44,815 nucleotides of DNA, taken from the IMG/VR virus record IMGVR_UViG_3300050020_000110, positions 1 through 44,815 of that record; one strand, 5' to 3'. A model generated the notes under the pieces. The model worked only from the letters and a program-made list of their open reading frames with translations. It searched no databases and had not been told where the DNA came from. Origin of the DNA: a virus. A program made the position numbers and the translations under genes. This document shows, one piece after another, positions 92 through 44,815 of the stretch (position 1 is its first letter; each line of letters opens with the position of its first letter).

Positions 92-222
92 GATAACATC
101 TAACTATGGTCGGTTGTCGGCTTCATCGCATTTAGAAGTAGCATCGCCCGCCCGAACTTCATCGGTTGGTTGCAGCGAAGTACACCGCAAATCTCCAACC
201 ACCATAGTAGCGACCGTTATGG
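92..222 (-). repeat. attC-like imperfect inverted repeat, site 1
   Basis: Read on the minus strand the element starts with CATAAC (222-217), one base after the stop of the 224-562 gene, and ends with GTTATCC (97-91). The arms pair imperfectly: CTATGGTGGTTGG near the start against CAACCGACCATAG near the end. Unpaired bases lie between, and the centre is longer and variable. Conserved ends, mismatched arms, about 130 bases of length and a position directly after a gene are the hallmarks of integron attC sites. The end box GTTATCC departs from the usual GTTRRRY. It contains GCGATGAAGCC, also present in the centre of the site at 44635-44766. Confidence 0.6.
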
Positions 223-270
223 TTCACTGTAAAAAAATACGTGCGATGCTTTTAGCTAAATTTTCAGCGA
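215..270. repeat. 56-base direct repeat, first copy (circle-closing overlap)
   Basis: These 56 bases are identical to the last 56 of the window (44760-44815). The copy begins with the base before GTTATGG and covers the last codons of the gene at 224-562. Upstream of the shared block the two contexts are unrelated. The simplest reading is an assembly overlap that closes a circular genome, with 1-214 as an alternative upstream cassette. Confidence 0.85.
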
Positions 271-4216: not shown

Positions 4217-4282
4217 TAGAAGCGAAGGGATTCGAACCCTTATCCCGTATAAATACGATTTTTCCTAGTAAACTACATCTCC
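4217..4282 (-). tRNA. Short tRNA-like structure, anticodon arm not resolvable
   Basis: On the minus strand a perfect T arm is present (AAGGG, loop TTCGAAT, CCCTT). An acceptor pairing GGAGATG with CGCTTCT (one A-C mismatch, three wobbles) and a D arm with GTTT, AGG and AAAT are also possible. Only about 16 bases lie between the D and T arms, where about 21 are needed. CGTATTTATACG there forms a palindrome instead of a normal anticodon arm. The whole is about 66 bases without an encoded CCA. It may be a decayed tRNA or a tRNA mimic. It sits alone in the 156-base gap between the DUF2800 and DUF2815 genes. Confidence 0.4.
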
Positions 4283-6601: not shown

Positions 6602-6630
6602 AATTTAGTTTTTAAAAATTAATAAATCTG

Positions 6631-6703
6631 TGCTCCCTGAAGGACTCGAACCTCCAAAACCAGACGATCACTCTGTACGGTTATCCATTTACGTCAAGGG
6701 AGC
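6631..6703 (-). tRNA. tRNA, anticodon read as GAU (Ile)
   Basis: On the minus strand the acceptor arms GCTCCCT and AGGGAGC pair perfectly. The T arm is GGAGG, loop TTCGAGT, CCTTC. The anticodon arm is best drawn as CAGA, loop GTGATCG, TCTG, giving anticodon GAT after T33. The total of 73 bases is normal, and CCA is not encoded. The D arm pairs only imperfectly (ACG with CGT) and position 37 is C and not the usual purine, so the identity is less certain than the fold. It lies 29 bases upstream of the gene at 6074-6601. Confidence 0.75.
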
Positions 6704-23196: not shown

Positions 23197-23711
23197 AGTC
23201 CGGCAGTATTATAGTTGATTTTTAATTCATCCCACTTAGTTTTATCCAAAGCAGCAGTAGAAACTACTGTAGTTGCAGTCAGGTAATCCATCACGGCAAC
23301 TTGCTTTTTCTTCATCTCGTACCAAACATAAACTTGCTTTGGCACTACTGATATGTTGATCGTATTTTCTACTTTAGCCTGTTTGAAGAGTTGACCATCA
23401 TACCTTGCTGAATAATCTGATAGATAGTAAAAGTAAATGTAATGCGCTACCAACGATACTTTGTTGGTAGAATCCCACAAAAGACCTTTCAAAGTAGCCC
23501 ATTTGGAGTCAGCTATCCCTGCTGTAAATTCAGCAGCTAAGCTAACTCCTAAAAGAGTTTCCAAATACTGTTTCTCATAAACATCTATCGCATTTTGGAG
23601 GGCTTCTGTTCTGGCTGCATATACGTCAGAAGGAATCCCATTATTAGCGGCAGGTTGGTCTATAAGAACCGGTTGTTTTTTGAAATAATCTACTGTGGTT
23701 ATTGATGCCAT
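23193..23711 (-). CDS. Head-tail connector (gp6-like) protein, 172 aa
   Basis: Starts MASITTVDYFKKQPVLIDQP. The helical plan with EKQYLETLLGVSLAAEFTAG, then KWATLKGLLWDSTNKV and LVAHYIYFYYLSDYSARY, matches connector or adaptor proteins of Bacteroidetes siphoviruses (DUF6712-type). These sit on the portal ring and join it to the tail. Inference from composition and order; no catalytic motif is expected. Confidence 0.6.
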   Translation of the reverse strand: MASITTVDYFKKQPVLIDQPAANNGIPSDVYAARTEALQNAIDVYEKQYLETLLGVSLAAEFTAGIADSKWATLKGLLWDSTNKVSLVAHYIYFYYLSDYSARYDGQLFKQAKVENTINISVVPKQVYVWYEMKKKQVAVMDYLTATTVVSTAALDKTKWDELKINYNTAGL

Positions 23712-24106
23712 TACAGTTTACTTTTAAAATCGTTCAAAGCTTTTATGAAAGCCGGTTTAGTTGCTCCTTCTGTTTTCAGTTCCAAAGTGCGTACCAAAAC
23801 TCCCATTTCTGGGTAAGGTATTTCTTCCACAACTGAAGCTTTCAGAGTTTCAACCGCTTTAAGGTAAGCCGGAGGAAATACTTCGCTAGTTTCGACCTTT
23901 ATCTCAGGAGTTTCAACTGCAGGGATTTCATCAACTGCAGGGATTTCATCAACTGCAGGGATTTCATCAACTGCAGGAGTTTCTACTACGGGCGGGTACT
24001 TTTCAGCCACACCTTTTTTGATAAGGTAGTTAGCGGTATCTACATCAGTTTCGATGATGTTTCCTGCTGTGTGCCCTGTAAAATCTTCTATATATCGGAC
24101 TTTCAT
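23711..24106 (-). CDS. Hypothetical protein with EIPAVD hexapeptide repeats, 131 aa
   Basis: Two structured parts are joined by a repetitive linker. The N-terminus MKVRYIEDFTGHTAGNIIET is a small beta domain with VDTANYLIKKGVAEKY, similar to the head-domain proteins that often follow capsid genes. The linker repeats PAVDEI about four times. A C-terminal helical domain ends FIKALNDFKSKL. The linker is encoded by an 18-base tandem repeat, so its length may vary between isolates. Possibly a head accessory protein. Confidence 0.6.
   Translation of the reverse strand: MKVRYIEDFTGHTAGNIIETDVDTANYLIKKGVAEKYPPVVETPAVDEIPAVDEIPAVDEIPAVETPEIKVETSEVFPPAYLKAVETLKASVVEEIPYPEMGVLVRTLELKTEGATKPAFIKALNDFKSKL
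23912..23983 (-). repeat. 18-base tandem repeat coding EIPAVD
   Basis: About four consecutive near-identical units of TCAACTGCAGGGATTTCA (plus strand) lie within the gene above. Units in frame keep the reading frame when gained or lost. Confidence 0.85.
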
Positions 24107-37230: not shown

Positions 37231-37488
37231 AATCTTAATTTTTAACGGTTACAAGTTACGCACACATACACGTATAGAGTGTATTTGCGTTTAGCCGATA
37301 TTGTTAATGATATATTGTTAATATATTAGGTTAATAATAATATATAAGTTTTATAATAAATATAGTAACTCTGTAACTTAACATAAATTTATACTGACTA
37401 TCAATACTTTAACAGGTTACAAAAATTTGTAACCAAAAGTAACTGTGTAATTTTAACGGTTACAAAGTTCAAAAGGTTTCATCTTCCG
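37231..37488. other. AT-rich origin-like region with many GTTAC/GTAAC repeats
   Basis: This 258-base gap contains about nine copies of GTTAC or its complement. TTAACGGTTACAA occurs near both ends (37240 and 37455), and GGTTACAAA-AA-TTTGTAACC forms a perfect 9-base palindrome around 37415. Between them is an almost pure A/T stretch with TATTGTTAATATATTAGG. Repeats that an initiator could bind next to an easily melted segment, directly beside the primase-helicase gene, are typical of a phage replication origin. No coding frame. Confidence 0.6.
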
Positions 37489-39894
37489 TTACAGGTGAAA
37501 ATTGGACTTTCGCATATAACCTCTTACTGTGACCCCTGATATTTTGATAGGTTTGGCCTCCCAATTATCTAAAAGTGACATTATGTATCGAATATCTTTA
37601 GCTGAAGCTTTATTCAAATCGGCAGGGTCTCTCTTAAATACCAACGTCCAAATATATTCCGGCGTTACTTTTTCGATAGGTTTACCAACATATTTTCCTG
37701 CATTGATATAGTCTAATCTCTCGAAGTGTTCCATATCTGACCATTCAGCAGGTACGGGCATATCGAGTATTTTATTCACCATTCGCGATCTATCATCCTT
37801 CATAACGTGTGCTTGCTGCATATCCGCAGCAAAAGTAGATAACTCTGTAGATAGATATAAAGGTTCATGTTCTTCAAAACGAACTTTAGCCTCAGCCCAG
37901 ATTTGGTCTACTTCGTTAGATAAATCATCGAAAATACTCTTCTTTGCGTTCTCTATCTTGCACGGACACACCCAATACCTACGATTACCAGTGGGGTCTT
38001 CCAACGGGTCTTCTTCATTTGTAGTAGGTATGAATATACACTGCCTAGGGAAGTTCTCAGTACGCTTACCATAGGCTACTCTATATCGGTCATCCCGCTT
38101 AGATATGAAGTGCTTTATCTGTTCCTTTTCAGCTTTCTTCATACCCGCCATTTCAGCCATCTCCACTATCCAAACACCTTGAATAGCTTCGTAGGCTTCT
38201 TTGCCCTGTATGGTTCCAAAACTATCAGAATACCACTCACCCCCAAGCTTTGCCACAAAAGTACTCTTACCCATTCCTTGACTACCGATAAGCGTGACAA
38301 CGTTGTCGAACTTACAACCAGGGGTATAAATCCGTGCTACCGCAGCAGTACACATTTTACGTGCAATTGCTTTTGTATAAGCATTATCGTCAGCCCCTAA
38401 GTAGTCAATGAAAAGATTATTCAACCTTTCAGTACCATCCCAAACAAGAGTATCTATATATTCTTTGACCGGGTGGAAACTGTTCTCCTCACAGATCAGG
38501 GTCATACCATCCTGAATAGCCTGTTTGCTTGTCAACTTGTACCTAGTTTCAACGTAGTGCCGAACCTGTACATCGTCTGAGTCAGCTAAATACTTTGTGT
38601 TCCGATTTATCTTACGCCATGGTAAATGCTTAGTAGCTACCTCGCGCTTCTCGAACTTATCCAAAGCAAAAGCACCTCTGAGGTATTTATCATTCCGAAG
38701 TACAAGCACAGCATTGTTGATAGTAGCCATACAGTTTCCCTGCTTATCCGTTTCAAGCTCACCTAGCCATTTATCGTCATAAGGCGTATCGACTTCAAGT
38801 TCTTCGTCAAACTCTATGTCATCGAATTTAGCTTTAGCATCTTCCAAACGCTCTAGTGCCAAACGCTTACGCACTCTAGGCTCTTTCGACACCAACTCTG
38901 ACATGGCAGAGAACGAAGGTAGCTTAGAGGTATTTGTACCATCTCTAGCGTCTTTGTCTTTTAACCCGAACTTGTGTATTCTAACCAAATCCCAAGCGTT
39001 TACGCACAAGCCCCCCGCAGGATCAGTCCCGTGATGGGAAAAAGCAAACTTATCCTCGTAGACCACCACGCCACCGGCGGTAGAACCTAGGGTGTAGGTG
39101 TACCTCTTATCATCATTCGCTACCGGTTCGTAGATACCTTCGAGGTAAAGTTCGATAGCTTCTGAGATGGCAAACTCCCGACAAAAAGCACCGATAAGCC
39201 CTGTTTTCTCTAACGGGTCGCCCTGCTTTTTAATATCAGACGTAATAATGTCTTTCACTCTGTCCGATGTCGGCCATTGAGAAATGTCGTGCCAATCTTT
39301 GTACTGCGCCAAAACTTCGTCAGCATCCAACCATTCACCATCAGAGACATGAAACTCATACTCACCATCAGCCGAAGTAGATGGCCAATACATAAGCCGC
39401 GAAGGCTCAAAAGTAGTATCGTCAAAATCGTTGATACCTAACGAACTTGCAATCTTACGAGCTATCGCAGTGTATTCGTCCGTGTAAACAGGACGGTTAA
39501 GAGGAATAACTAATCGTAGTCTTGGGCTTTTAGCAGTGTGTTTATGGGTTGAGTAGACCAAAGCAGCGCAGTCGTACAACACTGAGAAATTGTTCCAAAA
39601 GCCAGGTTTAGCAAAATCCAAGTCAAGCGTTAAAGCAGAACGTGAAGTAATACTATCAGCTTTTCTTCTACCTCCGTGAATGCTTCCTGCCACAAAGCCC
39701 CCCACGTCTTTCAGTTCAGCTTGTCTTGCAACAGTAGCAGCTTTGTATTCTGCTACTGTTTCAACAGTTCTGTGTGTCTGCGATAGCTTTTCCACTAAAG
39801 CGGACCACGTAGTCGTAGTGTTTTTCCAACTGGTTTCTTTCCGGCTCTTGCCGATAGCGATTTCCAGTTCTCCATCAAATTTTAGTTGTTGCAT
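37489..39894 (-). CDS. Primase-helicase (AEP primase with VirE/D5-type helicase), 801 aa
   Basis: The N-terminal part has ALTLDLDF and SPRLRLVIPLNRP, the metal-binding and template-contact motifs of archaeo-eukaryotic primases. The C-terminal half has Walker A GSQGMGKST, Walker B-like WIVEMAEM and TTNEEDPLEDPTGNRRYW, as in virulence-associated E helicases. One protein therefore primes and unwinds at the origin located immediately upstream on its 3' side. It is the main replication initiator candidate. Confidence 0.9.
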   Translation of the reverse strand: MQQLKFDGELEIAIGKSRKETSWKNTTTTWSALVEKLSQTHRTVETVAEYKAATVARQAELKDVGGFVAGSIHGGRRKADSITSRSALTLDLDFAKPGFWNNFSVLYDCAALVYSTHKHTAKSPRLRLVIPLNRPVYTDEYTAIARKIASSLGINDFDDTTFEPSRLMYWPSTSADGEYEFHVSDGEWLDADEVLAQYKDWHDISQWPTSDRVKDIITSDIKKQGDPLEKTGLIGAFCREFAISEAIELYLEGIYEPVANDDKRYTYTLGSTAGGVVVYEDKFAFSHHGTDPAGGLCVNAWDLVRIHKFGLKDKDARDGTNTSKLPSFSAMSELVSKEPRVRKRLALERLEDAKAKFDDIEFDEELEVDTPYDDKWLGELETDKQGNCMATINNAVLVLRNDKYLRGAFALDKFEKREVATKHLPWRKINRNTKYLADSDDVQVRHYVETRYKLTSKQAIQDGMTLICEENSFHPVKEYIDTLVWDGTERLNNLFIDYLGADDNAYTKAIARKMCTAAVARIYTPGCKFDNVVTLIGSQGMGKSTFVAKLGGEWYSDSFGTIQGKEAYEAIQGVWIVEMAEMAGMKKAEKEQIKHFISKRDDRYRVAYGKRTENFPRQCIFIPTTNEEDPLEDPTGNRRYWVCPCKIENAKKSIFDDLSNEVDQIWAEAKVRFEEHEPLYLSTELSTFAADMQQAHVMKDDRSRMVNKILDMPVPAEWSDMEHFERLDYINAGKYVGKPIEKVTPEYIWTLVFKRDPADLNKASAKDIRYIMSLLDNWEAKPIKISGVTVRGYMRKSNFHL

Positions 39895-44244: not shown

Positions 44245-44595
44245 TTATAAAAAAAGATGCGCTTCACGGGTTTTTAGCGTTTCGATAACCCCATTAGCTT
44301 TAATGACACATTCGTTTAATTCCTCATAATTATGACCGTCATAGTTTTTTGTATGCAGCAAATATTCAGTTGCCCATTTTAATTTTTCTAATACAACCTC
44401 CAAATTATAAGGATTATAATGACCTATAATTTTAATTGCAATCAGAGTATTTTTTATAAGATTTGATTCACATACAGTAAATCTATTATCTTGCATTTTT
44501 TCAAGTAATTGCCATTGAGAAATTCCAAGCAGTTCAGCTAATCGCTGTTGAGTGTATAACTCTAAAATTTCGTCTATTTGTTTTTGTAATTCCAT
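44245..44595 (-). CDS. Helix-turn-helix cassette protein, 116 aa
   Basis: Starts MELQKQIDEILELYTQQRLA. The segment TQQRLAELLGISQWQLLEKM is a helix-turn-helix. The rest is helical (NTLIAIKIIGHYNPYNLEVV). It may act as a small transcription factor or as an antitoxin. No toxin gene sits beside it. Located 40 bases after site A, with its 3' end at a CATAAC box, so it is the last unit of the cassette array before the replication genes. Confidence 0.7.
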   Translation of the reverse strand: MELQKQIDEILELYTQQRLAELLGISQWQLLEKMQDNRFTVCESNLIKNTLIAIKIIGHYNPYNLEVVLEKLKWATEYLLHTKNYDGHNYEELNECVIKANGVIETLKTREAHLFL

Positions 44596-44634: not shown

Positions 44635-44766
44635 CACATAACATGCACCCATAATCAGTGGCGAGGGTATCGCATTTCGGAGGTTCGCCACCCGCATTGG
44701 CTTCATCGCTTCGCTGACAAATCAGCTCCCGCAATTCGCCACATGCTCATGGCTGTATGCGTTATG
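44635..44766 (-). repeat. attC-like imperfect inverted repeat, site A
   Basis: On the minus strand it runs from CATAAC (44766-44761) to GTTATG (44642-44637). Arms of the type CATaCAgCCATgagcatGTGG and TCGCCACTGATTATGGGTGC pair with bulges, and TGGCGA/TCGCCA is perfect. The centre contains GCGATGAAGCC, shared with site 1. After the core GTTATGG the plus strand is identical to 216 onward, so this site and site 1 are two different upstream partners of the same gene. Confidence 0.6.
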
Positions 44767-44815
44767 GTTCACTGTAAAAAAATACGTGCGATGCTTTTAG
44801 CTAAATTTTCAGCGA
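44760..44815. repeat. 56-base direct repeat, second copy (contig end)
   Basis: Identical to 215-270 and ending with the window. It carries the 3' end of the gene at 224-562, so the genome should continue from 44815 into 271. The identity starts at the base before the GTTATGG core of two unrelated attC-like sites. Confidence 0.85.

Follow-up and report, generated by a model that had tools for sequence, protein, structure and literature searches.

The window analysed here, an entire IMG/VR virus record of 44,815 nucleotides, carries one short block both near its start and at its very end, and the question is whether this repeat records the movement of gene cassettes, as a sequence-only reading had proposed. 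Positions 215–270 and 44760–44815 were identical in 56 of 56 bases, and the identity set in at C215 and C44760, one base 5' of GTTATGG, both in agreement with that reading. As it had also stated, no extended similarity was found upstream of either copy: the last 60 bases matched at 18 of 60 positions without gaps. The two sites lying there had in common the words GGCTTCATCGC (11 nt, E 0.003) and ATCGCATTT (9 nt) and a few 7–8-mers. The 44,815-nt window contained no further long terminal repeat, and end repeats are not listed for the record. Since the second copy is the suffix of the contig, its right edge was set by the assembly and the left edge alone is biological. A length of 56 is near a common assembly k-mer size; that the block marks the edge of a repeat in a k=55 assembly graph was considered and not used as evidence. 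Merging the two copies as one place gave a circle of 44,545 bp, with positions 1–214 as a second incoming branch. On this circle all genes around the array are carried by the minus strand, and the shared block therefore forms the 3' end of gene 562–224, comprising the core CGTTATGG and the final 14 codons.

The two branches differ in what they bring to this gene end. One consists of an attC-like element, site 1 (92–222, plus strand), followed by a gene start, MTKKQFLSFGL. This gene was indeed present where it had been placed, but as a minus-strand fragment (1–33) that starts at position 33 and is truncated by the contig end. The other branch carries a second attC-like element, site A (44636–44767, plus strand), supported by structure and, weakly, by the position model described below, and behind it an HTH-like open reading frame (44245–44595, minus strand) with no Pfam match. 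Integron enzymes cut the R' core at G|TT, which on the plus strand predicts a cut between positions 216 and 217. The branches diverge two bases to the left of it, and the C and G that precede the cut are common to every site of the array (..CGTTAY). Since no site differs at C215 and G216, a cut at G216|T217 would fit the observed divergence, and the proposal that the branches part at the predicted cut of the R' core stood. For a break placed at random, the probability of falling so near a core is about 7e-4 (about six sites times five positions in 44.5 kb). That figure bears on the explanation that a chimera formed in the library or the assembly, or non-specific recombination, produced the junction and met the core by chance. 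Such an artifact would fit a single contig without coverage figures, and hairpins are able to halt assembly and sequencing. It would have to do without upstream homology to promote homologous recombination, and it would leave aside both the sister phages, whose breakpoints fall at comparable places, and the fixed polarity of such arrays on chromosomes, where they adjoin intI or a related recombinase. We regard it as very unlikely.

Five attC-like sites lie between the terminal genes. On the plus strand, each intergenic element followed roughly the pattern NNTAACA ... CGTTAY, enclosing an inner stem and a dissimilar center. Besides sites 1 and A, these elements occupy 602–679 (between the genes 948–703 and 562–224), 1267–1400 (between 1670–1407 and 1194–955) and 1702–1828 (between 2217–1831 and 1670–1407), all on the plus strand. 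Inverted R''/R' boxes, an inner stem, a variable center and repetition between cassette genes mark the elements as attC-like. A structural scan of the window gave seven matches, five of them with the A..C signature, whereas 40 dinucleotide shuffles gave on average 0.3 matches, and 0.025 with the signature, per shuffled window. Site 1 has the A..C signature on the plus strand and fell below the R-box rule of the scan. A doubtful element over the stop of a VapE-like gene (37405–37496, plus strand) was a structure match only, with position-model scores near or below zero. As single-stranded DNA, 602–679 folded far better than its shuffles (z −5.6, minus strand); the longer elements did so weakly or not at all. 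No tyrosine recombinase was found in the record by a PF00589 search, so that the intI of a complete integron is not present, and 602–679, 1267–1400, 1702–1828 and sites 1 and A, lying close together without an integron integrase in the record, make up a CALIN. All genes flanking the elements lie opposite to the attC strand, which is not the canonical cassette arrangement, where a gene shares the strand of its attC and R'' follows the stop codon. We file the array with the CALINs already known from phages (PMC9892861), as a variant with opposite genes and an exchange junction. In three cassettes a CTTTCTTTCTTT-like stretch was also observed on the gene strand between site and start codon, at about 1225–1261, 1675–1700 and 60–85.

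The argument that the cut lies at this end of the gene depends on the sites pointing opposite to the genes. To read their direction, attC-like sites were gathered around 40 intI genes of Bacteroidota, and a position model was built from the 48 sites located 5' of intI, read away from intI. Among these, an A after AAC together with a C before GTT occurred in 26 of 48, the C in 41 of 48, and the model found the expected strand in 44 of 48 when the entire locus was left out. Under this IntI model the plus strand was preferred for five of six window elements, strongly for two: 1702–1828 scored 28.6 (plus) against 3.4 (minus) and 1267–1400 scored 23.6 against 5.8, values like those of genuine intI-linked attC sites. 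The scores were 12.6 against 6.3 for 602–679 and 5.3 against 3.8 for site A, while site 1 gave 3.7 against 8.9 and preferred the plus strand under a second, REC-type model. The intI-like core bases and strand asymmetry are thus clear in 1702–1828 and 1267–1400, moderate in 602–679, weak in site A and mixed in site 1. According to the model, the array overall appears to point along the plus strand, against its genes; sites 1 and A taken alone would not prove this. From plus polarity it follows that the cleavable R' core would be CG|TTATGG at 215–222, adjoining the stop of gene 562–224. The earlier cassette reading was right about the attC-like sites and the break at the core, and had overlooked the opposite polarity of the genes. 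Sites running with the genes, with R' at the far end, were ruled out by the intI-linked model and by breakpoints on the stop side. In the same scan, the open reading frames flanking sites in intI loci lay on the attC strand in 50 cases and opposite in 9, whereas those flanking phage sites were on the attC strand in none and opposite in 20. The Fisher p of 4e-12 for this contrast is too low, since the flank counts are not mutually independent. The orientation of phage attC sites opposite to genes (0:20 versus 50:9 near intI) is apparently new.

The cassettes at the contig start carry small minus-strand genes. The gene joined to both sites (224–562) belongs to phrog_32581 and has relatives in phage PVJ1 and in another phage contig. 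It is followed by two genes of one unit without assigned function (703–948, phrog_21441, and 955–1194) and by a phrog_33371 gene (1407–1670), the start of which we shifted from 1748 to 1670 on account of the attC-like site in between. Two tRNA genes on the minus strand were each called by one program, that at 4217–4282 and that at 6630–6703 (one by Rfam only, one, a tRNA-Ile, by ARAGORN only), Rfam giving nothing beyond one tRNA in the window, and an 18-base short tandem repeat (TCAACTGCAGGGATTTCA) was seen at 23913–24002 within the open reading frame 23711–24106. No near relatives of the phage were found: positions 1–1900 had no nucleotide match among phage records, the DNA polymerase had relatives of about 50% in other phage types, those of the terminase reached at most 37%, and relatives of terminase and VapE came from phages of Bacteroidota and of other phyla. 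Exact patterns for the shared block, either junction or either site retrieved no second contig from IMG/VR.

These searches bear on the origin of positions 1–214. They could derive from a separate replicon with this cassette, such as an array of the host or some other phage, in which case the contig would combine sequence from both. A bridge between replicons is what a shared cassette would be expected to form, and a 64% relative of gene 562–224 also lies between attC-like sites in the phage contig L040. The gene itself, however, had no exact match in other IMG/VR contigs and was not found in 396 Bacteroidota genomes, in a search without a positive control. We consider such a mixture quite unlikely. 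L040, a 4.4-kb IMG/VR contig, is a further phage cassette array, in which this relative and a DNA methyltransferase are set among three or more attC-like sites. Alternatively, one genome could contain two copies of the cassette of gene 562–224, one behind each of sites 1 and A, with the assembly interrupted at the repeat. Repeats are common in integron arrays, and the resulting contig would be indistinguishable from the one observed. The contig stops after 56 bases, however, rather than after a whole repeated cassette, and a simple circle requires one copy only. A duplicated cassette therefore seems improbable; it would still amount to cassette movement, within one genome instead of between two variants of a population.

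The reading of cassette exchange makes it relevant how closely related phages differ, and isolated sister phages provided this comparison. Over their aligned parts the Polaribacter phages P12002L and P12002S reach 99% identity, yet whole genes differ between them, and the Flavobacterium Muminviruses likewise differ by whole genes. In the compared regions of the Muminviruses and P12002L/S, 13 of 15 distinct breakpoints lay at most 8 nt from a core, against 11–13% of background positions. For the predicted recombination by an integron integrase at G|TT of R', these breakpoints are indirect evidence. A one-gene cassette was present in mumin6-1, mumin6-2 and filifjonk and missing in mumin6-3, mumin6-4, tooticki and mymlan; it was bordered by TAACGTT on both edges, and a single TAACGTT was found at the empty site. 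Between mumin6-1 and mymlan6-1, one methyltransferase 3' end plus GCTAACG leads into a different site in each phage, and between P12002L and P12002S another methyltransferase end is likewise joined to two different sites. The junction in the window has the same anatomy as these exchanges in cultured phages of other groups. Swapped whole cassettes of methyltransferases and small genes, exchanged at attC-like cores, were seen in L044–L050 (Muminvirus, ~1.6–5 kb) and in L041/L042 (~28–42 kb).

As the record is without a tyrosine recombinase, the enzyme would act in trans. Of 396 genomes from the phylum, sampled as that of a Lacinutrix MAG and taken to be Bacteroidota, 105 had IntI (TIGR02249) above cut-off. 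In the class it was found in 1 of 198, and in the order Flavobacteriales, in a run without its own positive control, in 0 of 198. The supply of IntI by the hosts of the Flavobacterium phages was therefore unsupported at the level of order (0/198) and class (1/198), despite the 105/396 in the phylum. attC-like arrays are nevertheless present on Flavobacteriales chromosomes, and beside them we found a tyrosine recombinase, REC, mostly of 344–355 aa, which is without the IntI insert, retains a KSPxD end like that of IntI and has NCBIfam NF040815 as its best match. REC scores below the IntI cut-off and would be missed by a search that depends on IntI. REC and IntI fell into separate clades (support 98/99 and 100/100). 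REC stands directly before the array and in its orientation in L121 (9788–10849, minus), L140 (16591–17658, minus), L141 (9586–10620, plus), L142 (6691–7752, minus) and their relatives; for close REC relatives, 14 sites of uniform polarity were counted in 72 kb downstream and none in 104 kb upstream. The Muminvirus sites of L047 reached 30–33 bits on the REC-type model, and the two best window sites were of IntI type (30.4 on the IntI-type against 4.0 on the REC-type model, and 23.2 against 4.1). Such array platforms in Flavobacteriales, paired with a tyrosine recombinase other than IntI, are apparently new.

Taken together, the contig end is probably a point where the assembly branched within a cassette array of the phage, as a result of cassette movement at the core, and cassette exchange is the best-supported interpretation of the junction. 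This interpretation is favored by the exact core junction, the number of sites beyond chance, the plus-strand model, the sister phages, the presence of IntI in the phylum and the activity of phage attC sites; it is weakened by the single contig, the failure to find another, the strand conflict at site 1 and the absence of a recombinase from the record. The units would each consist of an attC-like site and a gene, with sites read on the plus and genes on the minus strand, and an integron-type site-specific recombinase supplied in trans would cut at G216|T217 beside the stop of gene 562–224. Read along the gene strand, the unit that comes next would in one arrangement be site A with the gene starting at 44595, and the circle closes; in the other it would be site 1 with the MTKKQ gene. 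Most likely, a cassette was inserted, lost or exchanged at the core next to gene 562–224. We infer that both arrangements occurred within the sampled population, the second being represented by 214 bases of one contig, and that a host enzyme of integron type made them.

The window junction and, above all, the near-identical isolated phages are evidence of cassette movement in natural phages. DNA methyltransferases are often encoded by the phage cassettes, and plating efficiency in the same Flavobacterium phages has been connected with their methyltransferase content (PMC7077304), so that cassette exchange may alter the hosts that can be infected. We tentatively propose, at somewhat less than even confidence, a cassette economy common to Bacteroidota and their lytic phages. 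In it, phage arrays would be reversed, with attC against the genes and the cut on the stop side, cassettes would move between phages in infected cells, and a separate tyrosine recombinase, XerA-like, without the IntI-specific insert and located directly before the array, would operate the Flavobacteriales platform (IntI 0/198).

CALINs, clusters of attC sites without intI, are known from virulent phages, among them Polaribacter P12002L and Tetrasphaera TJE1, and phage attC sites were recombined by IntI1 in an assay (Qi et al. 2023, PMC9892861). These phage CALINs resemble the window in having attC-like sites between cassette genes in a phage without its own IntI, and P12002L shares with the window the gene-strand pattern AACG..TGTTA; the portions consulted contain no sister-phage exchange and no contig-level junction. 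According to the paper, the arrays of TJE1 and PH101 run in one direction and the attC sites of P12002L are divergent (PMC9892861), whereas the genes of the window all run against attC. The arrays of Flavobacteriales that adjoin REC are like the window in their attC-like sites of ~124 nt between cassette genes and unlike it in that the two best sites of the window are of IntI type. The chromosomal integrons of Bacteroidota (TIGR02249) differ from the window in having intI and in 50 of 59 flanks on the attC strand; the two strongest sites of the window score like theirs (28.6 and 23.6).
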